This document shows positions 40,209 through 59,980 of a stretch of 64,000 nt of DNA, piece by piece. How positions within the stretch are numbered: position 1 is the stretch's first letter; each line of letters begins with the position of its first letter. Origin of the DNA: Sphaerisporangium siamense (GTDB lineage Bacteria > Actinomycetota > Actinomycetes > Streptosporangiales > Streptosporangiaceae); the NCBI RefSeq assembly GCF_014205275.1, contig NZ_JACHND010000001.1:3224001-3288000 (forward strand). The letters run 5' to 3'. The translations under genes and the position numbers were made by a program. The notes under the pieces are model-generated. The model saw only the letters and a list, made by a program, of their open reading frames with translations, was not told the origin of the DNA and searched no databases.

Positions 40209-40213
40209 GGGCC

Positions 40214-40258
40214 CGGGACGGCGGGCGCGGGACGGCGGGTCCCGCGCCCGCCGTCCCG
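40214..40258 (+). terminator. Strong hairpin after the P450 gene
   Basis: Perfect 19-bp arms at 40214-40232 and 40240-40258 with a 7-nt loop, starting 6 bp after the P450 stop. It should end the plus-strand NRPS-dehydrogenase-P450 transcript. Confidence 0.85.
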
Positions 40259-40332
40259 CGTTGCCGGAACGTTTGCCGGGGCGGGAGCGGCGCGCGGTTC
40301 GGGCACCGCGCGTTTGTGTCACACTCGTGGCC

Positions 40333-40716: not shown

Positions 40717-40730
40717 CCCGCGGGAACGTC

Positions 40731-40766
40731 AGAGGCGGCCGGCCCCGGCGCGGGGCGGCCGCCTCT
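40731..40766. terminator. Bidirectional hairpin between RidA and formyltransferase genes
   Basis: Inverted repeat AGAGGCGGCC (40731-40740) with GGCCGCCTCT (40757-40766), with a further GC-rich pairing inside the loop. It lies between convergent stop codons. Confidence 0.75.
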
Positions 40767-40780
40767 CGCGGCTCAGCCGG

Positions 40781-41697: not shown

Positions 41698-41701
<4 letters not shown>
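40781..41701 (-). CDS. Formyltransferase (Fmt/ArnA-type)
   Basis: This 306-aa enzyme uses 10-formyl-tetrahydrofolate. The catalytic trio is in place: N100 and H102 in LNVHDALLPEYAG, and D138 in DAELDTGPVV. The C-terminal half looks like the FmtC barrel domain. The GTG at 41701 overlaps argG (GTGA at 41698-41701). It is too diverged and in the wrong context for the housekeeping Met-tRNA formyltransferase, so an N-formylation step on an amino acid or peptide amine in the cluster is likely. The longer open frame upstream lies inside argG. Confidence 0.87.
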
Positions 41702-42923
<1,222 letters not shown>

Positions 42924-42927
<4 letters not shown>

Positions 42928-43688: not shown

Positions 43689-43923
43689 GGCCGCCTCCTT
43701 GGAGTATCGCTGTGGTTGACTCATGTTTTTATCGATAGGGACTGTTTCCCGATGGCGGGCGGCCGCATCCGGAGTGCAGCATAAGCCGAGCTCCGTTCAG
43801 GATGGCAATACTCATAGTTATGAAACGGACTGTGGAAATCTCGTACGTGCGGGCGGGGCCGGGGGACGGGGCCGGGCGGGGGCGCCGGGGCCCGCGCGTC
43901 CCGCCGGCCGGTTCGCGCTCCGC

Positions 43924-46033: not shown

Positions 46034-46177
46034 ATGACGCCCGAGCTCGTTCAGAAGACGACCGAAACCCCCGTTATGCTCACGCCGGAATTAGTGCAGA
46101 AGATGCTCTCCGCCCGTCAGGCCGAGGCAGCCATCAAGTTCCGCACGACCTGCACCGACTGCGTCCCGAACTACTGA
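46034..46177 (+). CDS. 47-aa precursor-like peptide with two Cys
   Basis: This small protein has a helical, leader-like N-terminal part with a repeated TPELVQK motif (residues 2-8 and 17-23), then SARQAEAAIKF, and a short C-terminal segment RTTCTDCVPNY with a C-x-x-C pair, two Thr and an aromatic end. That build (charged helical leader plus Cys/Thr-rich tail) is typical of a ribosomal peptide (RiPP) precursor. It has an excellent ribosome site and a consensus promoter. A phosphodiesterase-family gene follows 77 bp later. No lanthionine, YcaO, radical-SAM or PEARL enzyme is visible nearby, so the modification, if any, would have to come from the unusual enzymes downstream. It could also be a small metal-binding protein. 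Confidence 0.8.
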   Translation: MTPELVQKTTETPVMLTPELVQKMLSARQAEAAIKFRTTCTDCVPNY

Positions 46178-46254: not shown

Positions 46255-47418
46255 TTGCCGAGCGATATCGCACTGATCAATGAATTCATGACGGGGGACG
46301 GTGTGATCCCGCACCCCCGCCGATCGCTGAGTGCGATACCCGGGCGGATGCTGGACGAACTCGACCGTGCCGCCCGGGGAATCGTGGTGCTCGCCGTCGA
46401 CGGACTGTCGTGGCGCACCGCGCGCGAGTCGTGGCGCGACGCCGCGCTCGAAACCCTCACCTCCACCTTCCCCAGCACCTCCGCGACGGCGTGGATGACC
46501 GCCGTCACCGGTGTGCCCCTGACCGGGCACCTGGTCGCGGGCGCGGCCTGCCGGTCGCCCGCCGACGACGCCCTGGTGGACCTCATCCACGGCACCGTGC
46601 TCGCCGGCCCGCGTGACGCCCCCGAGCCCGTCGCCCCGGGCCGTCCCGCCTCGCCGGACGTCCTCGTCCGGCACCCCACCGTCTTCGAGACCGCCGCCTC
46701 CCGCGCCCGCGCCGCCGTCCTGGCCCGCGAGGTGGGCGCCCTCGGCGGCCCCTGGGCCGACGCGCTGCTCCAGGGGGCGGAGCGCATCCCCGGCCCCGGC
46801 CCGCGCGCCCTCGCCGCCGACGCGGCCGACCCCGTGCGCATGGCCGAGGCCGTGGCCGGCGACGTCGAGGCCGCCCTGACCGCGCACCGCGCCGACGTCC
46901 CCCTCCTGCTCTGGACGTACGTCAACCTGGACGAGCACGTGCACCGGCACGGCTACGACGCCCGCGCCCGCCGCGCCGTCGAGCAACTGGAGCGGCACGC
47001 GCGGTCCTGGGCGCGGCGCGGCTGGACCGTGCTCGCCCACGCCGACCACGGCCAGACGCCCTGCGCGCCCGACCCGGAGCTGGAGGCGGCCTGGGCGCGC
47101 GTCGACACCCCGGAGCTGTGCCGCCTGCCCGCCGGGGGCGCGGGACGGGTCCGCTGGCTCTACCCTCGCGAGGGCCGCACGGGCGAGGTCAGGGAGAGGC
47201 TCGCCGCCGCCCTGGACGGCCACGCGCTGGTCGTCCCCGTCGACGACCTGCCCGGCCTCGGGCTCACCGGCCTCACCCCCGCGCTGCGCGAGCGGATCGG
47301 CGGCGTCGTCGCCCTCGCCACCTCGCCGGGCTTCCCGCTCCCGGTCGCCGGCGTGGCCTGGGAGCACGGGGCGCTCAGCCCCGACGAGATGCTCGTGCCG
47401 CTGGCCGTCTGGCGCTGA
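46255..47418 (+). CDS. Type I phosphodiesterase/alkaline-phosphatase-fold protein
   Basis: This 387-aa protein has the metal-binding framework of the nucleotide pyrophosphatase/phosphodiesterase family: D49 in VVLAVDGLSW, a nucleophile Thr/Ser in TFPSTSATAWMT (71-82), LDEHVHRHGYD, and HADHGQT. There is no signal peptide, so it is cytoplasmic. The start is TTG with AGGAGG upstream at a rather long spacing. Downstream of the precursor-like peptide and co-directional with it, it may remove a phosphate or nucleotide group placed by enzymes of the same locus. The substrate is unknown. Confidence 0.82.
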   Translation: MPSDIALINEFMTGDGVIPHPRRSLSAIPGRMLDELDRAARGIVVLAVDGLSWRTARESWRDAALETLTSTFPSTSATAWMTAVTGVPLTGHLVAGAACRSPADDALVDLIHGTVLAGPRDAPEPVAPGRPASPDVLVRHPTVFETAASRARAAVLAREVGALGGPWADALLQGAERIPGPGPRALAADAADPVRMAEAVAGDVEAALTAHRADVPLLLWTYVNLDEHVHRHGYDARARRAVEQLERHARSWARRGWTVLAHADHGQTPCAPDPELEAAWARVDTPELCRLPAGGAGRVRWLYPREGRTGEVRERLAAALDGHALVVPVDDLPGLGLTGLTPALRERIGGVVALATSPGFPLPVAGVAWEHGALSPDEMLVPLAVWR

Positions 47419-47427: not shown

Positions 47428-48681
47428 TCAGGACGCCGGCGACTCCGACGGCGCGGCCTCGGCGCCGGGTCCCTCGGCGGCCTCGGGACGCTCGGGTGTG
47501 CCGCCGCGCCGGGAGATCAGCACGTACAGGGCGAGCACCAGGAACGCCGTCGCGGAGAACGCGTAGATGAGGCGGAACGGCACGAACCTGATCACGACGG
47601 TGCCCGCCGCCAGCGCGGCGATGTAGGGCAGGTCGATCAGCGCCTCCATCGCGGTCAGCGCCCGCCCCTGGAGCTCTCCCTCGGTGCGGCGCTGCACGAG
47701 CGTGGTGGTCGCCACCAGGAACACCGGGATCGAGATGCCCACCAGCACCCCGCCCGCGCACATGCCCGCCTCGGTGGTCGGGATGATCAGGGCCAGGCCG
47801 ACGGCCCCCAGCAGGAAGCCGATGGCCGCGGTGCGCGCCTCGCCGTACCGCCGGATCAGCGTGCCGACCGCGACGCCGCCCGCGATCGACCCCGCCCCCT
47901 GGAACGCGGCCAGGACGCCGATGAACGCGGTCGGGCGCCCCAGGCCGTCCTCCACGGCGGCGAACATCGCCGTGTTGATCAGCGCGCCCGCGCCCAGTGA
48001 GAGGCCGACGGCGATGATGACGTTCCGCATCTCGCGGTCCCGCAGGACGTGCCGGACGCCCGCCGTGAGGTCGGACGCGAGCCGCCCCGACGGCCGGGAG
48101 CGGTCGCGTACCAGGTCAGGGGTGCTCTGGAGCAGCAGCAGGATGACGACGGACAGCACGAACGTGCCCGCGTCCAGCAGCGCCACCCCGCCGAGCCCGG
48201 CCGCGACGAAGATCGCGGTGCCGAGCAGCGGGCCGATGATGCGAAGGCCCTGGCCGAGCGAGCTGAACAGGCCGTTGGCGTCGCCGAGCAGGTCCTTCGG
48301 CACCATGGAGTGGACCAGCCCGCCCCGCGCGGCGTTGAAGATCTGGTTGGAGACGCCGTAGCCCAGCGTCACCGCGTACACGATCCACAGGTCGCCCTCG
48401 TCCCTCACCAGCAGCAGGCACAGGACCAGGACGGCGGCGGCCAGGTCGTTGACGATGAGCGTGGCCCGGCGGGGGAACCGGTCCACGAGCAGGCCGGTCA
48501 GCGGCGCGAGCACCGCCGGCAGCGCCAGCAGCACGAACGTCACGCCGGCCAGCGAGTCCGAGCCGGTCAGCTCCTTCACCCAGATGGCGAGCACGACCAG
48601 CAGCGCGCGGTCGCCGAACATGTTGATCGCCTGTCCGGCGAAGAGCAGGACGAACTTGGGGTCACGCATGAGCCGGCGCAT
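47428..48681 (-). CDS. MFS transporter, probable peptide or drug exporter
   Basis: This 417-aa, 12-helix protein of the MFS_3/multidrug type has the loop LLVDRFPRRATLIVNDL between helices 2 and 3. The ATG at 48681 is chosen because GGAGG lies 5 nt before it; an ATG at 48693 is also in frame. It overlaps the end of the M28 gene by 20 bp and is the last gene of a four-gene operon. It probably exports the product of the peptide locus. Confidence 0.87.
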   Translation of the reverse strand: MRRLMRDPKFVLLFAGQAINMFGDRALLVVLAIWVKELTGSDSLAGVTFVLLALPAVLAPLTGLLVDRFPRRATLIVNDLAAAVLVLCLLLVRDEGDLWIVYAVTLGYGVSNQIFNAARGGLVHSMVPKDLLGDANGLFSSLGQGLRIIGPLLGTAIFVAAGLGGVALLDAGTFVLSVVILLLLQSTPDLVRDRSRPSGRLASDLTAGVRHVLRDREMRNVIIAVGLSLGAGALINTAMFAAVEDGLGRPTAFIGVLAAFQGAGSIAGGVAVGTLIRRYGEARTAAIGFLLGAVGLALIIPTTEAGMCAGGVLVGISIPVFLVATTTLVQRRTEGELQGRALTAMEALIDLPYIAALAAGTVVIRFVPFRLIYAFSATAFLVLALYVLISRRGGTPERPEAAEGPGAEAAPSESPAS

Positions 48682-50545
48682 CGGCACCTCCATCCGGGAT
48701 GGTCCGCTCGGCCGCCCATCCCGCCTCCAGCAGGATGTCCAGGAAGCGCCGCGCGAAATCCTCGTCCACGGGGAGCTCGGTGGCGGCTTCCGCGTACCGC
48801 CGCACGGCCTCCCGGTCCCGCGCCCCGTCGATGCCGTGCGCCAGGGCGACCATCAGCGCGTATCCGCGTGCCCGGTCCGCGGTCAGCCGCGCCCCGATCC
48901 ACTCCTCGCCGTCCCGATCCGCGTCCTCCGCGAGCCCCCGCAGGTTGAACGGCCCGTCCCACCGGCGCACCGGCACCCGCCCGCCCGCGGGCGCGGGCGT
49001 GTCGTCCGGCAGCAGCGCGGCCACGTGCCCGGCGAGGCCCTCCACCCACCGGCGGGGTCCGTCCCCTCCCTGGTCTCCGCAGATGACATCGACCCACTCG
49101 ACGGCCGCCACCGCGACCCGCGTACGGTGCCGCACCCCGTCCTCGCCGGGTGTGGACGGGCCGCCGGGGAGGCGGTCGAGGAGGCGGGCGGCGGCCCAGC
49201 GGAGGGCGATGGACTCCAGTTCCGGGCGGTCGGCGGGGGTGGCGGTGGCGAGGGTCGCGGCGATGGCCGCGGCCAGGGTCGTCGTGCGCCGCAGCTCGGC
49301 CGGGTCCACCTTGTCGAGGGTGTCGGCCGAGCTGTGGTTGAAGCGGTCGGGCCAGTGGCCGAGCGCGACGGCCGGGCAGGCGATCGAGCGGTCGGCCAGC
49401 AGGGCGTGGTCGGAGGCCCCGACGAACGGCGTGGCGCGCCAGGCCCACGTATCGCAGGCCACCGCGCCGGTGTAGGAGCGCGCGGCCTGCGGGAGCAGCG
49501 CGGCGGCGTGCTCGGCGAGCGCGCTGACGAAGCCGGGCAGGTGGTCGGGGGCGCGCTCCACGATGAGCGGGCCGCCGCAGAGCCGCTGGTCCTCGCCCGC
49601 CATGTCCACGTTCACCGCCGCCATGGGGACGACGCGGGCGACGTCGTGGAGGTAGGCGGCCATGCCGGTGAACTCCGGTGCCCAGACGAACCGCACGCCC
49701 CGGCGCGGACGGGTCCCGGCCAGCATCCGGGCGGCGGCCAGCAGCGCGGCGACCCCGGTCGCGTTGTCGTTGGCGCTCGGCATGGGGTGACACAGGTGCG
49801 CGTACAGCAGCACCTCGTCCGCTTCCTCGCCCGGGATGAGCCCGGTGACCAGCGGCATGGAGGCGTCCTCGCGCACGTCCACCGTGACGCGGGCCCGTCC
49901 GGCCGCGACCAGCACCGCCGCGCGTCCCCGCGGGAGGCTGAACGCGAACAGCGGCGCCCCGCCGCGCAGCTCGACGCGTCCGACGCCGCCGTTCGCGGAC
50001 ACCTGGTCGGTGACGAGCCCGGTCGCGCCCTCCCGCTGGGCCAGTTCCAGCGCGAGAGGCAACGGGACGGACGGGTCGTCGTGCACGGCGAGCGCGCCGC
50101 GCAAGGGCCCGGCCCCGATCCGGACGACCGGCAACTCCACCCCGTCCGGGCCGGTCGCCGCGGAGTGCGCGGCCAGGACGAACGGCTCGTCGGGGTAGCG
50201 CGCCAGAGGGAACCACCCGCCCGGGAGAGAGAACCCCTCCGAGGCGTGGAGAGGGCCCTCGCTCCGGACGAGAGAGGACGGGCCGGAGAGTTCGGCGCGG
50301 ACCGGGGTCCAGGAGGCGGGGGCGCGGAAGGTCCACCAGCGGCGGGCGCCGTCGGCGGGGAAGTGGTGCAGGCGCACCTCGCGCAGCCCGGCCTCCTCGG
50401 CGCGGGCGGCGACGTGCCCGGCCGCCGCCACGATGCCCGAGGACGCCTGGTAGCGGTCGGACGCGCACACCGCGGCGACGTCGGCCATGGCCGCGGCGGT
50501 GTCGAACAGGGAGTGCAGGCGTGCGATGGTGGTGGCGACGCTCAC
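48662..50545 (-). CDS. M28/DUF4910-like zinc aminopeptidase
   Basis: This 627-aa protein has an N-terminal PA-like insert and a zinc aminopeptidase core: LLYAHLCHPMPSANDNATGVAALLAAARML, RFVWAPEFTGMAAYL and the later HSSADTLDKVDP loop. The HxCHP..ANDN signature is that of DUF4910-type M28 relatives. A C-terminal helical tail of about 170 residues contains VAAVEWVDVICGDQGGDGPRRW. No signal peptide is present, so it acts in the cytoplasm. It may trim a precursor or remove an N-terminal residue from the product. The start is GTG, overlapping the methyltransferase-aminotransferase gene (GTGA). Confidence 0.82.
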   Translation of the reverse strand: MSVATTIARLHSLFDTAAAMADVAAVCASDRYQASSGIVAAAGHVAARAEEAGLREVRLHHFPADGARRWWTFRAPASWTPVRAELSGPSSLVRSEGPLHASEGFSLPGGWFPLARYPDEPFVLAAHSAATGPDGVELPVVRIGAGPLRGALAVHDDPSVPLPLALELAQREGATGLVTDQVSANGGVGRVELRGGAPLFAFSLPRGRAAVLVAAGRARVTVDVREDASMPLVTGLIPGEEADEVLLYAHLCHPMPSANDNATGVAALLAAARMLAGTRPRRGVRFVWAPEFTGMAAYLHDVARVVPMAAVNVDMAGEDQRLCGGPLIVERAPDHLPGFVSALAEHAAALLPQAARSYTGAVACDTWAWRATPFVGASDHALLADRSIACPAVALGHWPDRFNHSSADTLDKVDPAELRRTTTLAAAIAATLATATPADRPELESIALRWAAARLLDRLPGGPSTPGEDGVRHRTRVAVAAVEWVDVICGDQGGDGPRRWVEGLAGHVAALLPDDTPAPAGGRVPVRRWDGPFNLRGLAEDADRDGEEWIGARLTADRARGYALMVALAHGIDGARDREAVRRYAEAATELPVDEDFARRFLDILLEAGWAAERTIPDGGADAPAHA

Positions 50546-52398
50546 CGGCCCACCACGGCGCGGAACGCGTCCCTCCTGGCCCGCGACAGCGGCACGCTGA
50601 TCCTCGTCAGCGGCGCGGCGAACAGCGGGCGCACGGGCTTGCCGAGGATGCCGGGCGGGCACGGCCGCGAGGTCGTCACCCACGGCAGCGCCGGATGCCC
50701 CGGCTCCACGGTCACGCCGAGGGACCGCAGCCCGTCGATCAGCTCCGGCTTGGCCTCCGCGACGGCGGCGCGCAGCGGGGCCAGCGCGTCGCCGCGGTCG
50801 AGCAGCCGCAGCGCCACCTCCATGGGCAGCGCGGAGGCCGCGAGCGGCGGCGCCACCCGGCGCAGGTCCGCGCCCACCCCCGCCGAGGTGATCGCGAACC
50901 CGGTGCGCAGGCCGCCGCAGCAGTACCCCTTGGACACGCTGCGCAGCACGACGAGGCCGTCCACCCGCGAGGTGAGCGGCACGGCGCTGGCCTGCGGGCC
51001 CGCGTAGGTGGCGCCGGCCTCGTCCACCACGAGCAGCGCCCCCACCGCCGCGGCGGCCTCGGCCAGCGCGCGGATACGGTCGAGCGGCGGCAGGACGCCG
51101 AGGACGCCCGGCCGCTCGACGAGCACGAGCGAGGGCCGCGTGCGGGCGATCAGCTCCGGCGCGTCGTCGGCGGACGGGTCGAAGGGGCGCAGGGCGACGC
51201 CGAGCGCGGACGCCCAGGCGGGCAGGTCGGGGTGGGCGTAGGGCGTGCAGAGCAGGGTGCCGGGCGCGGCGAGCAGGCTCAGCGCGTGCAGCAGCCCGGT
51301 CGTGCCCGCGCCCGCGACCACGCGGTCCGGGGTGATGTCGGCGCCGAAGTGCCGCGCGAGCACGGGCGCCGCGCGCCCGCCGCCGTAGGGATCGTCCACG
51401 GCCAGCCCTCGCGCCACCTCGCCGAAGCCCGCCCCGGGACCGCCGGCGGCTTCCGCACGGTACTCGCCCCGCGTCCCGTTCCGGTGGTGTGCTCCGTTCG
51501 CGGCGCCGTCGGCGGACGCCGACGCGTGGGCCTCGGCCCAGGCGGCTTCGATGGCGTCGCGGGCGTACTCGACCTCGTCGGGGGCCCAGCGCAGGTCCAG
51601 GGTGCCCGGGGCGGGCGTCGCGCGGGCGTAGTCGAGGACGGCGGGCTCGGGCCGGCGCGGGACCCGGGCGACGAACTGGACGTAGCGGGTGTCCACCTGG
51701 ACCGGGGACCCGGCGGCGAAGTCGGCGTCGGCGCGCACGATCTCGTACCCGGAGTCGCGGAGCATGGCGGCGACCTCGGGCGGCTGGTAGAGCCGGAGGT
51801 CGTCGCGCAGCCGGGCGACCGCGCCGTCGGGCCGGGTGACGCGCAGCTCGCCGCGGCTGCGCCCGCTCATCGCGTCGTAGGAGCGGGCGAACTCGTAGAC
51901 GGTCCCCTCGGCCTCGAACCGGTCGGAGGCGCGGTAGCGGGCGAGGATGCCGGTCACGCTGGAGTGGTCCAGGATCAGCAGCCCGCCGGGGACGAGCCGG
52001 TCGCGCACCCGGCGCAGCAGCCTCCGCTGCTCCTCGTCCTCGCCCCAGCCGAAGCTCTGCAGGCAGACGGCGGCGTCCGCCTCGGGCAACGGGGCCCGCT
52101 CCAGCAGGTCGGCGCACACCACGCTCAGCGGGACCCCGGCCCGCCGCGCGGCCTCCTCGGCGCGGTCCAGCGCCCACCTGCTGACGTCGACGCCGACGAC
52201 CTCGAAGCCGTGCTCGGCCAGCGGGACCGCGTGCCGTCCGAGACCGCAGCCGAGGTCGAGCACGCGCCGTCCGGGCGCGTGCTCCTCCAGCGTCTTGACC
52301 AGGTAGGCGACCTCGCCCGCCGTGCGCGCGGCGGTGTACTCGTGGCGGACGAGGCTCCAGAAGTCGGGGGAGAAGTAGCCGGTGTACCACCGGCTCAT
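50542..52398 (-). CDS. Methyltransferase-aminotransferase fusion
   Basis: This 618-aa protein joins two enzymes. Residues 1-270 form a SAM methyltransferase (motif I RRVLDLGCGLGRHAVPL, 44-60; an Asp at the end of strand 2 in VVGVDVSRWALDRA). After an Ala/Gly-rich linker (about 285-340), residues 345-618 form a fold-type I PLP enzyme like HisC/class I-II aminotransferases, with Lys490 in LRSVSKGYCCGGLRTGF and ligands in VVDEAGATY. The ATG overlaps the next gene (ATGA at 52395). I do not know this fusion from any described pathway. It may make or methylate an unusual amino acid. Confidence 0.85.
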   Translation of the reverse strand: MSRWYTGYFSPDFWSLVRHEYTAARTAGEVAYLVKTLEEHAPGRRVLDLGCGLGRHAVPLAEHGFEVVGVDVSRWALDRAEEAARRAGVPLSVVCADLLERAPLPEADAAVCLQSFGWGEDEEQRRLLRRVRDRLVPGGLLILDHSSVTGILARYRASDRFEAEGTVYEFARSYDAMSGRSRGELRVTRPDGAVARLRDDLRLYQPPEVAAMLRDSGYEIVRADADFAAGSPVQVDTRYVQFVARVPRRPEPAVLDYARATPAPGTLDLRWAPDEVEYARDAIEAAWAEAHASASADGAANGAHHRNGTRGEYRAEAAGGPGAGFGEVARGLAVDDPYGGGRAAPVLARHFGADITPDRVVAGAGTTGLLHALSLLAAPGTLLCTPYAHPDLPAWASALGVALRPFDPSADDAPELIARTRPSLVLVERPGVLGVLPPLDRIRALAEAAAAVGALLVVDEAGATYAGPQASAVPLTSRVDGLVVLRSVSKGYCCGGLRTGFAITSAGVGADLRRVAPPLAASALPMEVALRLLDRGDALAPLRAAVAEAKPELIDGLRSLGVTVEPGHPALPWVTTSRPCPPGILGKPVRPLFAAPLTRISVPLSRARRDAFRAVVGR

Positions 52399-53600
52399 GA
52401 GAAGCCCTGGGCGCCGAAGAACTCGCACACGTCGCACAGGTCGGGCGGGTTCTGCACCCCTTCCTGCAGGATGTAGACGCCTTCGCAGACGCGGCACTTC
52501 TGCTCGACGAACGGGAACATGTAGCGCTGCATGTTCGCGAACGACTCGAACAGGTAGTAGTCGACGCCGGGCCACAGGCCGTACAGGTGGTCGGCCATGG
52601 CGTAGGCCATCGAGCGGTCCTGGGGGCCGGTGGTGAACCGGCCGGGGGCGCCCTGGCGGTTGAGCTCGGGGGCGACGAGCTCCAGGTAGAGCATCAGCTC
52701 CTTCTTGGTGATGCGGTAGAGCGGGAAGATGTAGCGCATCCCGCCGATCTCCCGCACCGGGATGCCGCCCATGCGGTAGCCGGACATGATCCAGGTCACC
52801 ATGCTGGCGACGAGGTCGTCGCCGTTGAAGCCGAACGCGACGGTCTGCGCGCCGGTCTCGACGGCGTGGTTCTCCAGCATGCGGCGCAGCACCTGGTGGC
52901 CGACGACCATGTTGAGGTGGCGGTTCTCCCCGGAGACCACGGAGTTCATGGCCTCCACGAAGGGCCTGCGCATCTTGAAGACCCGCTCGATGTCGGAGGC
53001 GGTGACGATGGCCTGGTCGATGCCGAGCTCCGCCGCCGAGGCGCGGGCCGCCGCGAACGTCGCCGGCTCCTCCCAGTCGGGCAGGCCGGTGATCGTGACC
53101 GAGGTCATGGGCACGTGCGGGATCCGGTCGCGGGTGCGCTCCATGAGCTTGAGCAGGGCCACGCTGTCCCTGCCGCCGGACAGCCCGATCACGACCGGCT
53201 CGCCGGCCCGCAGGACGCCGCCTCCGACGACGCTCTGGACGAACGCCTCCTCGACGTACCGGATGAATCCCTCGGCGTCGAAGTGCTCGACCCGGTGCTC
53301 CAACTGCCCGTTGACGTCGAACATCACGGTCTTGACGTAGACGGGGTCGGGGGTGGCGTAGACGGTGCGCGCCGGCTTGCGGATCACGTCCATGTCGTAG
53401 TGGCGCACCTGACGGATCTCGATCACGTCGTCGGGGCCGACGGTGGTGGTCTCTTCTGGAACGATTTTCCCGTTACGAGTGGTCAAGACGGCGTTGACGG
53501 GAATGCCGTGGGCCGTCAGGATTTCAGTCAGCGGCCGACCGGGGGTGGCGCTCAGCGTCTCCGAGCCACCGACTTTGTCATGGAAGACGACGTGTGCCAC
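52395..53600 (-). CDS. Ubiquitin-like domain fused to PP-loop ATPase (TtcA-like)
   Basis: This 401-aa protein has a beta-grasp N-terminal domain (about 1-70: LTEILTAHGIPVNAVLTTRNGKIVPEETTTVGPDDVIEIRQV, similar to ThiS/MoaD-type sulfur carriers but without a free GG end). A PP-loop ATPase follows, with SGGRDS at 141-146, then NHLNMVVGH/FGFNGDDLVASMV motifs as in TtcA/Ncs6 tRNA thiolases. The C-terminal zinc ribbon has C369, C372, C389 and C392. It should adenylate a substrate and perhaps insert sulfur. GTG at 53600 has a GGGAG site; GTG at 53615 gives 5 more residues. First gene of the minus-strand operon. Confidence 0.82.
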   Translation of the reverse strand: MAHVVFHDKVGGSETLSATPGRPLTEILTAHGIPVNAVLTTRNGKIVPEETTTVGPDDVIEIRQVRHYDMDVIRKPARTVYATPDPVYVKTVMFDVNGQLEHRVEHFDAEGFIRYVEEAFVQSVVGGGVLRAGEPVVIGLSGGRDSVALLKLMERTRDRIPHVPMTSVTITGLPDWEEPATFAAARASAAELGIDQAIVTASDIERVFKMRRPFVEAMNSVVSGENRHLNMVVGHQVLRRMLENHAVETGAQTVAFGFNGDDLVASMVTWIMSGYRMGGIPVREIGGMRYIFPLYRITKKELMLYLELVAPELNRQGAPGRFTTGPQDRSMAYAMADHLYGLWPGVDYYLFESFANMQRYMFPFVEQKCRVCEGVYILQEGVQNPPDLCDVCEFFGAQGFS

Positions 53601-53632
53601 GACTTTCTCCCTCACTGCTGTGATGTGCGCCT

Positions 53633-53704: not shown

Positions 53705-54709
53705 ATGAGCTCGTCTTTGACCGTCGAAGTACATAAGTCGGTCGATACCGTTGACGAAGCCGAATGGGATGATGTTGTATCTAGGGCGGGCGCGCCGGTG
53801 TTTTATCGCCTGGGCTATTTGCGCGCCTACGAGCGTTTTCCGCTGACCGACGTCGAGGCGTTCTTCTATTTCGTCGTACGCGACGCCGGGCGGGCCGTCA
53901 CCGTTCTGCCCGTCTCGCTGCTGCGCGGCGTCGACCCCCTCGGCCACCTCCGTCCCCGCTACCCCGTCGCGGCGGCCGACCGCGGCCTGCTCAGCCACGT
54001 CTGGCACTGCTACGACGCGTGGCTGCCGGGCGAGCCGCACACCGGCGTGGTCGTCGCGGCGATGCGCGACCTCGCCGCCGAGCTCGGCGCCGACTGGTAC
54101 GGCTTCATCAACGTGCCGAGCGGCTCGGCGCTCGGCGCCGCCCTGGTCGCCGAGGGCTTCCCCGCCGAGCACATCGAGGACCGCTTCCGCGTGGACCTGC
54201 GCGGCATGACCGACGTCGAGGGGTACATCGCGGCGGCCAGGCCCCGGGGCCGGGCGAACCTGCGCCGCAACGGCCGCAGGGCGGCCGAGGCCGGGGTGAC
54301 CGTCCGCGCCATGGAGACCGCCGACGGGGACCTGATGGAGGTGGCCGCGCTGTGCGCCGCCACCTCCGACCGGCACGGCACCGGCGCCTTCTACCCGCCC
54401 GAGCTGTTCGCCGGCTTCGTCACCGCGCTCGGCGGCAACGCCTGCCTGATCGAGGTGCGGGAGCGCGACAGGCTGGTCGCCGCGGGCGTCTGCCTACGCG
54501 ACGAGACCCGCTTCCACGCCTGGGCCTGCGGGGTGGACTACGAGATCGGCGGCAACTACAGCCCCTACCCGGTCCTGTTCGCGGCGACGGCCGAGCAGGC
54601 GCTGCGCCAGGGCCGCCAGGTGATGGAGGGCGGCCGGGGCAACCACGCCTTCAAGCTCAAGCACGGGCTCACGCCCGTTCCCCTCGACGCCTGCCTGCGC
54701 GCCGTCTGA
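53705..54709 (+). CDS. FemAB/GNAT-like acyltransferase 1
   Basis: This 334-aa protein resembles FemAB-like GNAT proteins that transfer acyl or aminoacyl groups, often from aminoacyl-tRNA. Key pattern: an N-terminal GNAT-like half, the basic helix PRGRANLRRNGRRAAEAGVTVRAM (about 180-203), and a second GNAT half ending EGGRGNHAFKLKHGLTPVPLDACLR. ATG at 53705 follows a G-rich site. The stop overlaps the second copy (TGATG at 54707-54711). A role in adding an amino acid to a peptide is plausible by family, not proven. Confidence 0.78.
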   Translation: MSSSLTVEVHKSVDTVDEAEWDDVVSRAGAPVFYRLGYLRAYERFPLTDVEAFFYFVVRDAGRAVTVLPVSLLRGVDPLGHLRPRYPVAAADRGLLSHVWHCYDAWLPGEPHTGVVVAAMRDLAAELGADWYGFINVPSGSALGAALVAEGFPAEHIEDRFRVDLRGMTDVEGYIAAARPRGRANLRRNGRRAAEAGVTVRAMETADGDLMEVAALCAATSDRHGTGAFYPPELFAGFVTALGGNACLIEVRERDRLVAAGVCLRDETRFHAWACGVDYEIGGNYSPYPVLFAATAEQALRQGRQVMEGGRGNHAFKLKHGLTPVPLDACLRAV

Positions 54710-55824
54710 TGCGGGCGTTCGCGGCGGTCCCCGGCCGCGTCGCGGACTGGGACCGGCTGAGCGCCGGCGGGCCGATGTTCGCGACCCCCGAATGGCTGGA
54801 CGCGATGCGCGGCCGCGTCCCCGGCGCGGCCTACACCTTCGCGCTGCGCGAGGCGGGGGAGACGCGCCTGGCCCTCTACGGCACCGTCCTGGACCGCGAG
54901 GCGACCGGCGAGATCTTCGACCTGCCGTACATCCTGGCGGGCGACCCGCGCGTGTTCCCGCTGAGCGAGGCGTCGCGCGCCGCCCGCGCCACCTGGCGGG
55001 TGCCGCCCGCGCAGAGCTGGTACCCCAACCTGGTCGTGATGCTGCCCGGCTACGAGTGCCACGCGCTCGGCCCGCTGGCCGCCGACACCGGCGCGCTGTC
55101 GGAGCTGGTCGGCGCCATCGTCGCCTGGGCGAAGGAGCGCGACCTGCGCGCCGTCGCGTTCCTGTACACGCCGCCGGGCGCGGCGGCGCTCCGGCGAGCC
55201 CTGCCCGGGCACGGCTTCACCCGCGTCCCGCTCAGCTACTCCTGCGAGCTGCCCCTGCCCGGCGCCGGGTTCGACGACTACCTGGCCGCCCTGCCGCGCA
55301 AGCAGCGCACCGAGACCCGCAGGGAGCTGCGCGTGCTGGCCGCCGCGGGCGTGCGGGTGCGCGCGGTGCCGGTGGCGGACGTCCCCGAGGACGTCGTGAC
55401 GCTCAAGTGCGCCCACTCGGCCAAGTACAACGGCAGGCCCGCCGACCGGGCCAAGGTGCGCGCCCGCCTGGAAGGGCTGTGCGCCCTGCGCGACCCCCTG
55501 CTGTTCCGCGCCGAGTTGGATGGCACGCTGGTCGGCTACGGGCTCTTCGCCCGGTACGGCGACGTCTGGTACTGCGTGAGCACCGGCATGGACTACGCCC
55601 GCGCGGAGTCGCGCAACGCCTACTTCGCGACCGTCTTCTACGAGCCCGTCCGCCTGGCCCCCGAGGCGGGGGTGCGGCGCGTCCACTACGGGCAGGCCAC
55701 CTGGCGCGCCAAGATGTCGCGCGGGTGCGAGGCCGTCGAGATGCCCGGCTGGGTGCGCGCCGAGGACCCGGCGCTGGCCCGGGTGGTGGCCGACAGCGCC
55801 GGGACGACCGTACCGGCGTTTTGA
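54709..55824 (+). CDS. FemAB/GNAT-like acyltransferase 2
   Basis: This 371-aa protein is a distant relative of the gene before it: a GNAT-like N-terminal part, the basic helix LPRKQRTETRRELRVLAAAGVRVRAV (about 199-224), then ALRDPLLFRAELDGTLVGYGLFARYGDVWYCVSTGMDY and VRRVHYGQATWRAKMSRGCE. It is directly coupled to copy 1 by TGATG. Two different FemAB-like enzymes in tandem suggest two successive acyl or aminoacyl transfers. It ends 3 bp before the convergent NDPK-like gene. Confidence 0.76.
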   Translation: MRAFAAVPGRVADWDRLSAGGPMFATPEWLDAMRGRVPGAAYTFALREAGETRLALYGTVLDREATGEIFDLPYILAGDPRVFPLSEASRAARATWRVPPAQSWYPNLVVMLPGYECHALGPLAADTGALSELVGAIVAWAKERDLRAVAFLYTPPGAAALRRALPGHGFTRVPLSYSCELPLPGAGFDDYLAALPRKQRTETRRELRVLAAAGVRVRAVPVADVPEDVVTLKCAHSAKYNGRPADRAKVRARLEGLCALRDPLLFRAELDGTLVGYGLFARYGDVWYCVSTGMDYARAESRNAYFATVFYEPVRLAPEAGVRRVHYGQATWRAKMSRGCEAVEMPGWVRAEDPALARVVADSAGTTVPAF

Positions 55825-55827: not shown

Positions 55828-56688
55828 TCAGGAGCCCCGGCGCAGCGGCGGGAAGGTCATGGACGTCTTGAGCACCGCGTGCTCCCAGGGGTCCAGGGTC
55901 AGGCCGTAGGGGGCCATGCGCTTCGCCGCGCGGGCCAGGTCCACCTGCGGGTGGCCGGGCAGGTACTCGCAGGAGAGCAGCTCCGCCAGCGGGTGGCCGG
56001 CGGGGAGCAGCGCGGCAAGCTCGGCCCCCGCGCCGGCGTGCGTGGCGCGGGCCAGCTCGGGCGCGGCCTTGCGGCCGTCGGCGGTCAGCTCGGTCCAGAC
56101 GGCGGCGACCACGCGGGACCGCAGCCCGGTCACCACGTCGTCGTACTCCCTGGTCTCCGCCGGAGCGCCGGACTCCAGGAGCGCGACGAGCCCCCGCAGC
56201 TCGGCGGGGTCGTCCACCGCCGTCCCGAGGCCGGGCCCGAAGAACACCGACGCCTCCCGCAGGGAGTCCTCGGGGCTGTCGGAGGTGTGGACGACGCCGA
56301 GCATGGCGTTGACGGCGCGCAGGTCCCGCCGGATCGTGCCCGGGGCGGCCTCGGACGGGTGGCTCGCGCCCTTGATCTCGCGCAGCCGCGCGTGCGCCGA
56401 CCCGGGCGCGCGGTCGTCGTGCGGCCGTTCCTCTACCAGCAGGGCGAGGGTGGGACCGAGGTCGAACACCAGGTCGACCTGCCGGTAGAAGTAGGCCTTC
56501 CATACGGAAGTGATGTTGCGTTCGTGAAAGGCGTCCTGACCGGGGGGACGGTGCCAGAGCACTTCGTACCGTACGGGCGCGAACCCGTGCCGCTCCAGCG
56601 TGTCCAGAACCGGGGAGCACAGGTGACGTTCGAGCGCGTCGGGTGGAAGGAGAACGAGAACGGTCCGCTGCCAATCGATCGCTGTCAC
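55828..56688 (-). CDS. NDP-kinase-like protein with altered active site
   Basis: Residues 1-145 of this 286-aa protein follow nucleoside-diphosphate kinase: RTVLVLLPPDALERHL, the conserved GTIRRDL (R120), and the histidine region LGVVHTSDSPEDSLREASVFF with H134 as the phosphohistidine. The usual Lys of KPDA is Pro, and the Asn before the His is Gly. The C-terminal 140 residues are an extra helical domain. The start is GTG at 56688 with GGAG upstream. It is the last gene of the micro-ORF operon. It may phosphorylate a peptide or nucleotide, or act as a binding protein. Confidence 0.8.
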   Translation of the reverse strand: MTAIDWQRTVLVLLPPDALERHLCSPVLDTLERHGFAPVRYEVLWHRPPGQDAFHERNITSVWKAYFYRQVDLVFDLGPTLALLVEERPHDDRAPGSAHARLREIKGASHPSEAAPGTIRRDLRAVNAMLGVVHTSDSPEDSLREASVFFGPGLGTAVDDPAELRGLVALLESGAPAETREYDDVVTGLRSRVVAAVWTELTADGRKAAPELARATHAGAGAELAALLPAGHPLAELLSCEYLPGHPQVDLARAAKRMAPYGLTLDPWEHAVLKTSMTFPPLRRGS

Positions 56689-56736
56689 CCATCACTCCGT
56701 TTCAGGTCGTCCTGTGGGGATTCTTTCTAGCGACGG

Positions 56737-56790
56737 CTAGCGCGGCGTGGTGACGCGCGGCCGGCGGGCGAGCTTGCGGCGACGGTCCAT
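56737..56790 (-). CDS. Micro-ORF 6 of 6, 17 aa
   Basis: Encodes MDRRRKLARRPRVTTPR. The ribosome site AAAGG lies 7 nt upstream in the end of micro-ORF 5 (3-nt gap between stop and start). It ends with TAG inside a small hairpin at 56727-56740. It keeps the MDRR and RRPR blocks but not the KKG end. Confidence 0.75.
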   Translation of the reverse strand: MDRRRKLARRPRVTTPR

Positions 56791-56793
56791 GGG

Positions 56794-56850
56794 TCAGCCT
56801 TTCTTCGGCGAGAGCCTGGGCCGGCGCAGCGTGTACTGGTGACGGTCCAC
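56794..56850 (-). CDS. Micro-ORF 5 of 6, 18 aa
   Basis: Encodes MDRHQYTLRRPRLSPKKG from a GTG start, with AAGAGG upstream. The stop of micro-ORF 4 is 2 nt before it. It has all three blocks: MDR, RRPR and KKG. Confidence 0.75.
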   Translation of the reverse strand: MDRHQYTLRRPRLSPKKG

Positions 56851-56852
56851 GA

Positions 56853-56903
56853 CTACCTCTTCTTGGGCTTGGTGATCTTGGGGCGGCGTGCCTGGAGAGC
56901 CAT
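56853..56903 (-). CDS. Micro-ORF 4 of 6, 16 aa
   Basis: Encodes MALQARRPKITKPKKR. AAGAAGGGA precedes the ATG by about 6 nt. The central ARRPK block is kept while the start and end differ from the MDRR...KKG pattern. Confidence 0.75.
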   Translation of the reverse strand: MALQARRPKITKPKKR

Positions 56904-56906
56904 GTT

Positions 56907-56951
56907 TCATCCCTTCTTGCTCGGCGGGACGGTGGTGCGGAGCGGCGTCAT
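56907..56951 (-). CDS. Micro-ORF 3 of 6, 14 aa, diverged
   Basis: Encodes MTPLRTTVPPSKKG from the ATG at 56951. No ribosome site stands in front of that ATG. In frame upstream are codons for A-D-H-R-S preceded by AAGGGCTGAC, as in front of micro-ORF 2. The ancestral start may therefore have been lost (now GTC/GCG), making this copy a decayed or restarted member. It keeps the KKG end and lacks RRPR. Confidence 0.55.
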   Translation of the reverse strand: MTPLRTTVPPSKKG

Positions 56952-56970
56952 GGACCGGTGGTCCGCGACG

Positions 56971-57021
56971 TCAGCCCTTCTTGACTCGGGGGCGGCGCGC
57001 CTGGTGGTGCCGACGGTCCAT
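56971..57021 (-). CDS. Micro-ORF 2 of 6, 16 aa
   Basis: Encodes MDRRHHQARRPRVKKG. The ribosome site AAAGGG lies in the end of micro-ORF 1 and only one base separates the stop and start codons. It shows the full MDRR-RRPR-KKG pattern. Confidence 0.8.
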   Translation of the reverse strand: MDRRHHQARRPRVKKG

Positions 57022-57022
57022 G

Positions 57023-57076
57023 TCAGCCCTTTCGCGAGGGCTTCGGGCGACGAAGTGCCAATCTGCGGCGATCCAT
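57023..57076 (-). CDS. Micro-ORF 1 of 6, 17 aa
   Basis: Encodes MDRRRLALRRPKPSRKG. It has the strongest ribosome site of the set (AAGGAGAACGGT then ATG) and lies 101 bp after the M16 gene. It is the first peptide of the array in transcription order. Together the six peptides are rich in Arg, Lys and Pro, with no Cys, Ser/Thr-rich core or leader, so they do not look like known RiPP precursors. Confidence 0.8.
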   Translation of the reverse strand: MDRRRLALRRPKPSRKG

Positions 57077-57177: not shown

Positions 57178-58401
57178 CTAGTCAATACCGGCGACCGTGA
57201 TCACCAAAGGTTTCAGCGCCGTCCGCAGGCTCTCCAGGACGTCTTCGGCCGTCACGGCGCGGATGGCCTCGATGTGACCGGCCAGCGTCCAGGGATGGCC
57301 GGGGATCAGCCCGTAGCGGCCGTAGAGCAACGCCTCCTCCAGCGACTGCTCGGTCTCCAGCTGCAGGAGGCCCGCCGCGCGCCGCGTGGCCGGCTCGACC
57401 TCGCCGGCCGTCCAGCCGTCCTCCGCCCGCCGGGTCAGCAGGGTGGTCGCGGTCTCCACGACCTCCTCCACGTGCTCGGGCGCGGTGGCGACGAAGGCGC
57501 GCCACACGCCGGTGTCGCGGTAGGCGTTGGTGAAGGCCCACATGTCGTAGGCGAGCCCGCGCCGGTTCCTGATCTCCTCGAACAGCAGCGCCGAGCTGGC
57601 GCCGCCGATCAGGTCCATGAGCACCTGCCAGGCCGGCAGCAGCCGGTGGCCGTAGGGCACGGCCGGCCCGCCCAGCACGACCCCGGCCGACTCGTTGTTC
57701 AGCGGCAGGTGGCGCCGCCCGCCGCCGACGATCGGGCTGCCGTCGTCGCGGGGGACGCCCCCGGCCGGCAGCGCGGACACCGGCCCGGACTCCAGGACCT
57801 CCAGCACGGCCTCGGGGGAGAGGTCGCCGCAGACGATCACGCCGGCCGAGGCGCCGCGCACCCACCGCGAATGGAAGCCGTGCAGGTCGTCCAGGGTCAC
57901 CCGGCCCACGCTCTCCGCGGTGCCGCCCACCGGCCGGGCCAGGGGGTGCCGGCCGAACGCGACGTCGTAGAAGACGTCGTGGACGACGTCGAACGGGTCG
58001 CCCGCGGCGAGCCGCAGCTCCTCCTGCACGACCTTGCGCTCGGACTCCAGGACCTCCTCGGTCAGGCCGGGCCGGGCGAGCGCGCGGGCGAGGATCCCGA
58101 GCGCGGTCCGCGCCTCGGGCGAGGGCACCCGGCCGTACAGGACGAGGTGGTCGCGGCTGGTGATCGCGTTGCCCTCGCCGCCGAGGCCCTCCAGCAGGTC
58201 GATCGGGCGGCCGGAGCCGTCGGCCAGGGGCGCCTGCATGAGGATGTGCTCCAGCAGGTGGGTGCCGCCCGCGACGGACTCCTGCTCGTACCGGGAGCCG
58301 GTGAGCAGCCACAGCGTCACGGTGGTCGCGGTCGCGCCCGGCCGGTGCAGCACCAGCACGGGGACGCCGTTGGCCAGGGTCGTGCGCACGGGCGCCCTCA
58401 C
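57178..58401 (-). CDS. M16-family zinc peptidase
   Basis: This 407-aa protein has an intact inverted zinc motif H48-L-L-E51-H52 and the downstream ligand region ERKVVQEELRLA (E127/E128). The C-terminal half (RNRRGLAYDMWAFTNAYRDTGVWRAFV) carries the substrate-binding Arg-Tyr of M16B enzymes. M16 peptidases often work in RiPP pathways (PqqF, AlbF type) on small basic peptides, which fits the adjacent micro-ORFs. GTG start overlaps the nucleotidyltransferase stop (GTGA at 58398-58401). No signal peptide, so cytoplasmic. Confidence 0.88.
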   Translation of the reverse strand: MRAPVRTTLANGVPVLVLHRPGATATTVTLWLLTGSRYEQESVAGGTHLLEHILMQAPLADGSGRPIDLLEGLGGEGNAITSRDHLVLYGRVPSPEARTALGILARALARPGLTEEVLESERKVVQEELRLAAGDPFDVVHDVFYDVAFGRHPLARPVGGTAESVGRVTLDDLHGFHSRWVRGASAGVIVCGDLSPEAVLEVLESGPVSALPAGGVPRDDGSPIVGGGRRHLPLNNESAGVVLGGPAVPYGHRLLPAWQVLMDLIGGASSALLFEEIRNRRGLAYDMWAFTNAYRDTGVWRAFVATAPEHVEEVVETATTLLTRRAEDGWTAGEVEPATRRAAGLLQLETEQSLEEALLYGRYGLIPGHPWTLAGHIEAIRAVTAEDVLESLRTALKPLVITVAGID

Positions 58402-59612
58402 GCGTCCTCCTCCTCGCCGCCGTCGTCGCGGCTCTCGCCGATGACTTCCCATCCGCCGAGGCCGCCGACGGCCTGCGCGCCCTCCAGCGCCGCCTCGTCG
58501 ATCTCCTCGCCGTGCACGAGCACGAACCCTCCGGCCGGGGTGTCGGCCCACAGCGTGCCGCCGCGCTCGCGCAGGGTCGCCCGCTCGGCGTAGTGGTCGC
58601 CGGCGACGGGCAGCGCGAACAGCACCAGTCCGGCGTCCAGCGCCGTCCTGCTGCTCACCTTGCTCTCGGTGAGCCGCCACGCGCGGCGGCCGATCGGCCC
58701 CGAGCGTCCGGCCATCATGCGGTTCTGCAGTTCGAGCAGCGCGAAACTCATCGGCCGCCGCAGGCCGCGCGCCGCCGTCGCGCGCCGCCGGGCCCGCCCG
58801 GCCCGGGTGAGCGCGCGCAGGTCGCCGGGCAGGCGGGGGACGTCGAGGGAGGCGGCGTCCAGCAGCGCGGCCAGCTCGGCGTACTCGGGCCACAGGCCGA
58901 TCTCGTGGACCGCGAGCGCGCAGGAGTTCAGCACGTGGCGCGGCGCCGCGTCGAGCTGCACGGCGGCGTCCACCAGGTCGCGGGCCCGGAACGGCTGCTC
59001 GAAGCGTTCGAGCAGCAGCGCCACCAGGTTCTTGGCGATCGGCTCCTCGCACGGCGGGGGGAGCGCGCGCCGGGCGGGGACGCCGGCCGGGCCGGGGAGC
59101 ATGGCCATCGTGCTCAGCTCGACGGCGTACGGCAGCCCGTACGGGTCGTCGGCGTGCCTGCGCATGCTGACCAGGAACTGGAGGCGTCCCTCGAACTTGA
59201 GGAAGGTGGCGCTGTGCAGGGCCCAGCCCTCCTCGACCAGCCAGGAGACGATCGGCCAGACCCGGTCCTCGTCGGGGATCCAGTAGTCGAGGTCGTTCAT
59301 GGTCCGCACCAGGGGCTCGGGGTAGCGCGCGGCCACCTCCAGGCCCTTGAAGGTGACGGGATCGCCGAAGCGGGCGGCGATGCGCTTCTGGAGGTCGCGG
59401 TAGAAGGCCATCCGCGCCCGGAACCGGGACAGCTCGTGGGAGAGGCCGGGGCCGAGATCGCGCCCGTCCCGCTCCCAGGCGCTCAACAGCGTGGCGAGGA
59501 AGGAGGGCTGTGCGGTGCGGGTGACGTGGAGCACCTCCCCGGGCGTCTCCATGTCCTGGCCCGTCACCGTGGCCAGGATCTCTTCAAGCTCGCCCGACGT
59601 CAGCCCGATCAC
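58398..59612 (-). CDS. Nucleotidyltransferase-like protein (NTP_transf_5 type)
   Basis: This 404-aa protein matches the Pol-beta-like family PF14907 in layout. The metal-binding acid pair is in VRTMNDLDYWIPD (D-x-D), followed by VWPIVSWLVEEGW and LKFEGRLQFLVSMRRH..VELSTM. The C-terminal third is unusual: an Arg-rich region ([21 protein letters not shown]) and a final domain ending in acidic residues. Members of this family occur in lasso-peptide and other peptide loci. It is the first gene of the M16/micro-ORF/NDPK operon; GTG start with GAAGGA upstream. Confidence 0.75.
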   Translation of the reverse strand: MIGLTSGELEEILATVTGQDMETPGEVLHVTRTAQPSFLATLLSAWERDGRDLGPGLSHELSRFRARMAFYRDLQKRIAARFGDPVTFKGLEVAARYPEPLVRTMNDLDYWIPDEDRVWPIVSWLVEEGWALHSATFLKFEGRLQFLVSMRRHADDPYGLPYAVELSTMAMLPGPAGVPARRALPPPCEEPIAKNLVALLLERFEQPFRARDLVDAAVQLDAAPRHVLNSCALAVHEIGLWPEYAELAALLDAASLDVPRLPGDLRALTRAGRARRRATAARGLRRPMSFALLELQNRMMAGRSGPIGRRAWRLTESKVSSRTALDAGLVLFALPVAGDHYAERATLRERGGTLWADTPAGGFVLVHGEEIDEAALEGAQAVGGLGGWEVIGESRDDGGEEEDA

Positions 59613-59920
59613 GTGGTTCCGTCCTTCTGGCCCGGTCGTTCCAGGGGGAGATCTTCCCGACGACTCTGACAGATGACACTGTCCCCGACAAGACGTCCCC
59701 AGGCGGCGTCGTGGGCGGAAAACTACCGTGCGTAGCCGATTTCCGAGCGAACCGATCCTTATAGAAGGTGGGCCTGCGAATTCCGTGGATCGTTCCTTAC
59801 AGGTACGTGAGCGCTGCTCGCGTCAAGGCGTGATCAAGGTGGGGATCGGGCCGCGGTGGCGGTGCGTGGCCGTCACGTGAATATGGTCTTGACGGTGTGA
59901 TCGCAGGTGAAGGACCGCTA
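59613..59920. other. Divergent intergenic region
   Basis: Upstream of the nucleotidyltransferase operon (minus) and the LPMO gene (plus). A TTGACG element on the minus strand near 59820 may be part of the operon promoter, but no good -10 follows. No gene is visible. Confidence 0.4.
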
Positions 59921-59949
59921 TTTACTCTTAGGAAACTTTCCTTTATATT
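59921..59949 (+). promoter_or_regulatory. LPMO promoter with operator in the spacer
   Basis: TTTACT (59921-59926), a 17-bp spacer and TATATT (59944-59949) fit a promoter. The perfect palindrome AGGAAA-C-TTTCCT (59930-59942) lies wholly within the spacer, ideal for a repressor. This palindrome type often precedes secreted polysaccharide-degrading genes in actinomycetes as I recall, suggesting sugar-responsive control. Confidence 0.65.
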
Positions 59950-59980
59950 CCTGGGCATCCCCCCAGGAAAGGAGCGTGGT

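Follow-up and report, generated by a model that had tools for sequence, protein, structure and literature searches.

A tandem array of micropeptide genes in Sphaerisporangium siamense, in a locus that appears to encode a RiPP-type pathway with two peptides and a FemX-like transferase

A row of very short reading frames in the soil actinobacterium Sphaerisporangium siamense is, on the pattern of its conservation, a true tandemly amplified micropeptide gene family that is selected as protein. The window analysed here, a stretch of 64,000 nucleotides with a G+C content of 72%, carries this row between the genes for a single-chain M16 metallopeptidase and an NDPK-like protein. The locus has the appearance of a RiPP-type pathway that draws on two peptides and a FemX-like transferase; the pathway is seemingly undescribed. 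A preliminary description of this DNA had listed substrate, scaffold, toxin and antimicrobial as possible roles for the peptides. These are not separable by sequence alone, but co-occurrence with the cluster enzymes and the fixed register of the peptides lead us to favor a role as substrate of those enzymes over the others listed.

The six micro-ORFs of the window are consecutive, all on the minus strand and nearly back to back, with gaps of 1, 19, 3, 2 and 3 nt in order, and every feature counted in the preliminary description was found again, including RRP[RK] in five of the six, an MDR start in four and a KKG or RKG end in four. Micro-ORF 1 (57023..57076; 17 residues, MDRRRLALRRPKPSRKG), whose peptide is identical in G007, the relative with 98% NDPK identity to the window, is a canonical unit, as are micro-ORF 2 (56971..57021; 16 residues, MDRRHHQARRPRVKKG), micro-ORF 5 (56794..56850; 18 residues, MDRHQYTLRRPRLSPKKG, with a GTG start) and micro-ORF 6 (56737..56790; 17 residues, MDRRRKLARRPRVTTPR). 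Micro-ORF 4 (56853..56903; 16 residues, MALQARRPKITKPKKR), which has RRPK and a basic tail without MDR, is a shortened unit, and its DNA is the same in G007. The remaining frame, ORF3 (56907..56951; 14 residues, MTPLRTTVPPSKKG), lacks the motif, and alignment with G007 shows its ATG changed and one base deleted there, with loss of both start and frame. Judged by this alignment, ORF3 is either a relic or degenerate unit or a product of chance, which leaves five micro-ORFs in the window.

That the micro-ORFs are chance reading frames in G+C-rich intergenic DNA has a probability close to nil. This reading is refuted for five of the six; ORF3 alone behaves as such a frame might, and for it only is chance a possible origin. 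When the 340-nt stretch was simulated 5000 times under a first-order Markov model, chains of short ORFs reached three at most (17 of 5000) and never four (0 of 5000), against the six observed. Not one simulation of the 5000 produced any ORF with the full motif, whose longest unbroken run in the window is only two because ORFs 3 and 4 interrupt it. Conservation across ten genomes and a bias toward synonymous change are likewise contrary to a chance origin.

Searching 60 relatives with the NDPK-like protein brought up close homologues in four further genomes, at 73-98% identity; named loci with an NDPK-like homologue are those of Streptosporangium sandarakinum, S. pseudovulgare, Nonomuraea soli, Acrocarpospora catenulata and N. 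harbinensis. When an NDPK profile was run against 341 genomes of the family, with the best seven or fewer candidates scored per genome, the clade was found at E 1e-25 or better in 15, of which ten hold arrays: G000, G007, G006, G009, G334, G015, G221, G060, G196 and G089 in the numbering of the search, representing five genera of one actinobacterial family. All ten arrays lie directly upstream of the NDPK gene, between it and the M16 gene. Among 394 genomes sampled from the class, E 1e-25 was reached in three only, all of the window's family (G000, G015 and G018). Homologous loci without the array, or frames broken by frameshifts, had been named beforehand as signs of chance; neither applies to the array except in the case of ORF3, although the array is absent from five more distant loci that have NDPK/Fem homologues, those of G030, G018, G174, G176 and G290, with no motif-bearing micro-ORFs in the stretches examined near them. 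A differently built single micropeptide is possible at these array-less loci or in the sibling clusters of G239 and G240.

The ten arrays comprise 48 canonical units (10, 8, 6, 6, 4, 4, 3, 3, 2 and 2 per array), a count that leaves out two MALQ units (in G000 and G007), ORF3, and a possible fourth, divergent micro-ORF that stands before the NDPK gene of G089 (L063 7064-7129, MNCRGAARGQWRIAPRLRRKG). The unit has the form MDR-x5-RRP[RK]-basic tail, and exactly five residues separate R3 from the [RLK]RP block in 46 of the 48. Among these 46 in-register units, M1, R3, R10 and P11 are constant, D2 occurs in 44, R9 in 45, and 44 have R or K at position 12; positions 4-8 are variable, with Ala or Leu frequent at 7 and 8. 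Units are rich in Arg, Lys and Pro and carry a net charge of +5 to +8, with a mean of 6.8, over 16-20 residues. Such a composition, with up to ten variants per array, would suit leaderless cationic antimicrobials or toxin-like peptides that are produced together and leave the cell as a mixture through the MFS protein, the M16 peptidase serving to trim them or to protect the producer. We hold this to be very unlikely: binding to membranes or ribosomes would not by itself readily account for a block of 12 residues in fixed register, and the single-copy counterparts found in a second family sit in an enzyme-rich pathway, not in a simple bacteriocin locus.

Comparison of orthologous units bears out selection on the peptide, in line with the conservation check proposed in the preliminary description. 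Between G000 and G007, four canonical units show eight synonymous and three non-synonymous changes (pS 0.15, pN 0.022); the three all fall within positions 4-8, and the MALQ unit, not included among the four, shows no change. The six units compared between L031 and L032 have eight synonymous changes and one non-synonymous change (pS 0.095, pN 0.004). Pooled orthologous units give 16 synonymous and four non-synonymous changes, that is, four of 20 where 73% would be expected (P ~1e-6). When all units are compared pairwise, the five block codons give a pN/pS of 0.04 and positions 4-8 one of 0.94; this value near 1 among paralogues reflects saturation and leaves tolerance and diversification indistinguishable.

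Because the fixed residues are encoded by many different codons (Arg at position 3, for example, uses four codons, and Arg at position 10 uses five), a repeat maintained at the level of RNA or DNA is not favored. The sole row returned by Tandem Repeats Finder at the array stretch is a 20-base repeat at one end (56727-56746). The placement of the arrays directly upstream of NDPK, the stop-to-start gaps of mostly 2-3 nt and, in the second family, the single ORF that precedes the nucleotidyltransferase gene might also suggest cis-acting leader ORFs, such that their translation would govern how strongly NDPK, or in the second family the nucleotidyltransferase gene, is expressed. That is highly improbable, given that synonymous sites change freely while the peptide sequence is preserved, that copy number runs from 2 to 10, and that the distance to NDPK varies between about 20 and 160 nt.

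A ribosome-site match, defined as four bases or longer at 4-13 nt upstream, precedes 46 of 50 units (the 48 plus the two MALQ units) compared with 29% of 5000 random positions. Where one unit is closely followed by another, the next ribosome site sits in the codons of the KKG end. The end [KRA]KG is found in 19 of the 31 units with the next unit within 5 nt versus 8 of the 19 others, a small difference. A basic tail occurs in 28 of those 31 and in 15 of the 19, and persists where no following ribosome site needs it. The shared KKG end may in part be a by-product of overlap with the next ribosome site, and the case for KKG as a recognition signal is weakened because the same codons double as that site.

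Reading the intergenic gaps of related clusters revealed a second, precursor-like peptide of 47 residues, missed in the preliminary description and encoded just before the phosphodiesterase gene (46034..46177, plus strand; MTPELVQKTTETPVMLTPELVQKMLSARQAEAAIKFRTTCTDCVPNY), with the ribosome site AGGAGGT. Its C-terminal KFRTTCTDCVPN is identical in 14 of 14 clusters, namely the ten array clusters and four of another family. Only the last residue differs within the final 13, KFRTTCTDCVPN[YMF], and the 12 shared codons have pN 0 and pS 0.42. The earlier statement that the peptides have no leader and no Cys is correct for the micropeptides of the window and incorrect for the locus, as the 47-aa peptide has an invariant, Cys-containing C-terminus; two array units in other genomes also hold one Cys. 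A protein search with the 47-aa peptide found eight relatives, every one named hypothetical, including one from Streptomyces (last residue L) and one from Pseudonocardiaceae. Neither Pfam nor NCBIfam gives it a family, the one NCBIfam hit, for a sibling's peptide, being at chance level (E 0.12), and a search of plasmids gave no match. Short precursor-like genes, for the 47-aa peptide and the micropeptides, are found beside enzymes in 14 clusters, in agreement with the genetic part of the general definition of a RiPP. The invariant KFRTTCTDCVPN provides a simple handle with which to find more clusters and to test the chemistry directly.

Sibling clusters with a related core occur in G030, G239 and G240 (L043, L098 and L099). 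Each has a single peptide of 45-46 residues, ending RFRTCCADPRASR, before the PP-loop gene, and the PP-loop protein itself is distant, at about 28-31% identity. In the stretches examined, these clusters contain no homologue of the window-type nucleotidyltransferase and no motif-bearing micro-ORFs; G030 has a different nucleotidyltransferase (PF01909).

Pfam agrees with the neighbors named in the preliminary description, that is, the M16, NDPK-like, nucleotidyltransferase and two FemAB-like genes. The M16 protein (57178..58401, minus strand, GTG start) has an intact HLLEH and a distal Glu, with H47-L-L-E50-H51 and E127 invariant in eight of eight sequences, and so by its residues has what is expected of an active peptidase (HxxEH plus distal Glu). 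Its clade is found in 11 of 341 family genomes at a score of at least 565 bits, the next best being 224, among the best five or fewer candidates per genome. Those 11 are the ten array genomes plus G218, where the M16 gene is an orphan (L090 8826-10010) with no array or cluster genes in the 20 kb read; none of the five array-less NDPK/Fem genomes is among them. Among solved structures, those closest to the M16 protein are one titled "processing protease" (3hdi) and that of mitochondrial processing peptidase beta (MPP-beta). Mitochondrial processing peptidase prefers Arg-rich substrates.

The nucleotidyltransferase-like protein (58398..59612, minus strand; NTP_transf_5, PF14907) scores 31.7 bits against a cut-off of 31.2, has an NDLD motif that is invariant in the eight sequences aligned, and yields a profile that at E 1e-10 matches five of 60 relatives, all five with arrays. 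The NDPK-like protein of 286 residues (55828..56688, minus strand) retains, by alignment, the active-site His, H134, in 13 of 13 sequences. The TtuA/NcsA-like PP-loop protein (52395..53615, minus strand) shows the highest identities among the cluster enzymes in relatives; its Asn_synthase score is below the cut-off (19.1 of 21 bits), and its PDB relatives are TtuA-like thiolases. The other members of the cluster are a methyltransferase fused to a CobD/HisC-like PLP domain (50542..52398, minus strand), an M28/DUF4910 peptidase-like protein (48662..50545, minus strand), an MFS exporter recognized by Pfam (47428..48693, minus strand) and, directly after the 47-aa peptide, a type I phosphodiesterase / nucleotide pyrophosphatase-like protein (46255..47418, plus strand).

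Two FemAB-like proteins are encoded on the plus strand, Fem1 (53705..54709), a FemX-like double-GNAT transferase, and Fem2 (54709..55824), for which the stretch read in G089 gave no tblastn match. A search with the Fem1 sequence returned no PDB match at E 0.1. The AlphaFold2 model of Fem1 (pLDDT 94.0, pTM 0.90) has as its best PDB matches Weissella FemX (7z5y, 1ne9) and the streptothrisamine proteins Sbb17/Sba18, with TM (query) of 0.62-0.67, and the PDB titles for Sbb17/Sba18/FemX describe aminoacyl-tRNA-dependent or non-ribosomal amino acid transferases. All 13 sequences aligned share W272, N312 and K316 (in a numbering that omits Met), and F315 varies. In DhpH-C, according to a review (PMC12945691), the corresponding residues include N325 and K329, giving the same N-K spacing as in Fem1 (4) and a W-K spacing of 45 versus 44 in Fem1. 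By its modeled double-GNAT fold and catalytic W/N/K, Fem1 appears to be of FemX type, with use of tRNA predicted.

Homologues of Fem1 and of the NDPK-like protein also occur without any array. In G176 (L064), NDPK, Fem1 and Fem2 homologues are found in a phosphonate-type cluster with PEP mutase and Fe-ADH by Pfam, and in G018 (L044) the start of an Fe-ADH ORF is near-identical to that of G176, with NDPK, Fem1 and Fem2 homologues alongside. The proximity of Fem1 and NDPK homologues to PEP mutase in G176 implies that these enzymes also serve an array-less pathway.

The aminoacyl-tRNA-type transferase fold of Fem1, a strictly conserved micropeptide N-terminus with positions 4-8 free, and the presence of two peptidases in the cluster would all be compatible with a pearlin-like carrier function. 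The FemX-like enzyme would load the micropeptide with an amino acid, which would be modified in place by the PP-loop, methyltransferase/PLP and phosphate-handling enzymes, and M16 or M28 would free a small product, making the micropeptide a tool and not part of the product. We judge this unlikely, as the 47-aa peptide, whose C-terminus is invariant, is a stronger carrier candidate, and the ten cluster proteins scanned include no LanB-like ligase. The known carrier TglA has 50 residues (PMC9016710), and pearlin carriers are reused (PMC10885120), so that ten copies are not called for. No tRNA gene that might supply a dedicated charged tRNA was found in the window.

A PP-loop profile search produced five hits in 394 genomes of the class (G000, G015, G239, G240 and G439) and four in 394 genomes of the family of G439. 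The four clusters of this second family, in G439, G713, G715 and G747, each have a KFRTTCTDCVPN peptide together with the PP-loop protein (65-67% identity), methyltransferase-PLP, M28, phosphodiesterase and Fem1. Their NDPK-like genes are distant (23-32%) and short, four of four scoring above the NDK cut-off, and their nucleotidyltransferase homologues show 30-34% identity, one of four (33.1 bits) exceeding the PF14907 cut-off of 31.2 and the others scoring 24.1, 28.4 and 30.6. M16, Fem2 and MFS2 gave no match in the stretches read from these four clusters, and M16 is therefore not needed for every micropeptide.

Each second-family cluster encodes one basic micropeptide upstream of the nucleotidyltransferase gene. 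Motif scans detected only MAVSAKRIRVRPKPNKK; MSVAFKQVKVRPKPGK, MVATKKVRIRTKGRR and MVAAKKVRIRTKSVS were found by reading frames. These peptides are equivalent to the array units by place and make-up. Their homology to the units is unproven, the similarity being not significant (1667 to 5522 of 20000 shuffles reach the score). Only the front is kept between MVATKKVRIRTKGRR and MVAAKKVRIRTKSVS, with about four synonymous and two non-synonymous changes in codons 2-11 and about two synonymous and five non-synonymous in the last four codons. The KKVRIRTK of two of the single micropeptides (L105 14951-14998, L106 5384-5431) resembles the start of ribosomal protein uS10, possibly by chance.

A basic micropeptide and a nucleotidyltransferase homologue thus occur together in 14 of 14 KFRTTCTDCVPN clusters. 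This pairing, maintained even where the micropeptide is a single copy, and the strongly basic character of the peptides could indicate a helper that non-covalently binds, activates or solubilizes the nucleotidyltransferase-like protein, the 47-aa precursor or an RNA, and is not consumed. Up to ten diverged copies would be unneeded for such a task, and we consider it quite unlikely.

Our preferred reading is that the micropeptides are M16-processed, consumable substrates, with the chemistry inferred; we regard this as a serious possibility, though at somewhat less than even probability. The match of Fem1 to FemX/Sbb17/Sba18 and that of M16 to MPP-beta count in its favor. Against it, Fem1 and NDPK occur without the array and so need not act on it, and the second-family micropeptides are not significantly similar to the units, with tails unconserved in the two closest. 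The N-terminal 12 residues may be read as one unit by a cluster enzyme, and because the register is fixed over these 12 residues, one binding site recognizing MDR and RRP together is suggested. M16 would be the likeliest reader and trimmer, a natural candidate because it co-occurs with exactly the MDR-type form (10 of 10). Trimmed basic peptides, or their amino groups, would then become acceptors or carriers for the FemX-like transferase or transferases, and the product would also draw on the modified C-terminus of the 47-aa peptide. The multiplication of copies and their variation at positions 4-8 could reflect either bulk use with tolerated positions or a product mixture; copy growth with free central positions fits a peptide that is consumed in quantity or made as a set. 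Among the reactions to which the cluster enzymes may point are aminoacylation, phosphate or nucleotide transfer, sulfur transfer or amide chemistry, and methylation.

A more specific form of the substrate reading, which we consider unlikely, is that the separate leaderless micropeptide genes provide a set of interchangeable ribosomal acceptors, trimmed by M16, and that the FemX-like enzyme links them to a unit built on the 47-aa peptide with its invariant C-terminal stretch of 12 residues, or lengthens them by such a unit, giving hybrid products. An array that serves as an acceptor set would represent a new biosynthetic logic, in which a family of hybrid products comes from one cluster. If the micropeptides are substrates of any kind, a RiPP-type pathway would operate on many free-standing genes of 16-20 codons in place of one precursor, and a FemX-type ligase would have a ribosomal peptide as its acceptor. 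Genes so small easily escape gene callers, and such systems may therefore be overlooked in genome mining.

No description of the array, the 47-aa peptide or the gene set was found in the open-access literature, among the matches listed; with conservation and this literature taken together, the view of a genuine peptide array of a build without a found description holds up. Pearlin, daptide, thioamitide, lasso and pheganomycin types each fail on a defining enzyme in the ten cluster proteins scanned. The pearlins (3-thiaglutamate, ammosamide) are alike in having a ribosomal peptide with a constant C-terminus, an aminoacyl-tRNA-type transferase and peptidases, but the Pfam hits of the ten cluster proteins include no LanB-like PEARL, and a FemX-like enzyme and a micropeptide array are found instead. 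The pheganomycin precursor carries repeated cores. Here the peptides are separate genes, and Pfam finds no ATP-grasp ligase in the ten proteins. The likeness to pheganomycin, where PGM1 acylates the N-terminus of a ribosomal peptide (PMC8359417), is one of idea only, the peptide being the acceptor for a separately made acid.

The YcaO-TfuA pair of the thioamitides is absent from the Pfam hits of the ten proteins. Biarylitides are made from a five-residue precursor with a P450, and are not known to have a tandem array. They and other minimal-gene RiPPs are similar in that very short precursor genes are overlooked by gene callers (PMC13417212). The methyltransferase half of the fused protein scores 62 bits with daptide_MTase, below the cut-off of 175, and daptides have a C-terminal Thr, whereas the 47-aa peptide ends CVPN[YMF] in 14 clusters. 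The locus also differs in that no oxidative decarboxylase or ADH was found, and in a PLP domain of class I/II versus class III in daptides (PMC10036551).

Among the cluster proteins scanned there is no lasso-type asparagine-synthetase-like cyclase with its leader peptidase, nor a kinase of the sort in PsmN-type lasso clusters. PsmN presumably belongs to PF14907. The resemblance lies in a nucleotidyltransferase-like protein within a RiPP cluster (PMC9266682). Fem1 resembles the FemX-family tailoring ligases (DhpH-C, VlmA, PacB, BD-12 Orf11 and Sbb17/Sba18), with which it shares the double-GNAT fold and the W/N/K positions. Those of them named in the review (PMC12945691) act on small molecules or a growing NRPS peptide, whereas ribosomal peptides are the possible acceptors here.

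A second biosynthetic cluster occupies 33363-45246 of the window, with an NRPS (C-A-T), a RidA-like protein, a formyltransferase, an argininosuccinate synthase and a HalD-family (PF23169) oxygenase, plus, by eye, two acyl-CoA-dehydrogenase-like proteins, a P450 and an MFS protein. Parts of it also adjoin the array cluster in G007 and G006. On the other side of the array cluster, an ORF at 59897-60715 resembles, by eye, a secreted, carbohydrate-active (LPMO-type) protein, and homologues of this ORF lie near the cluster in the same two genomes.
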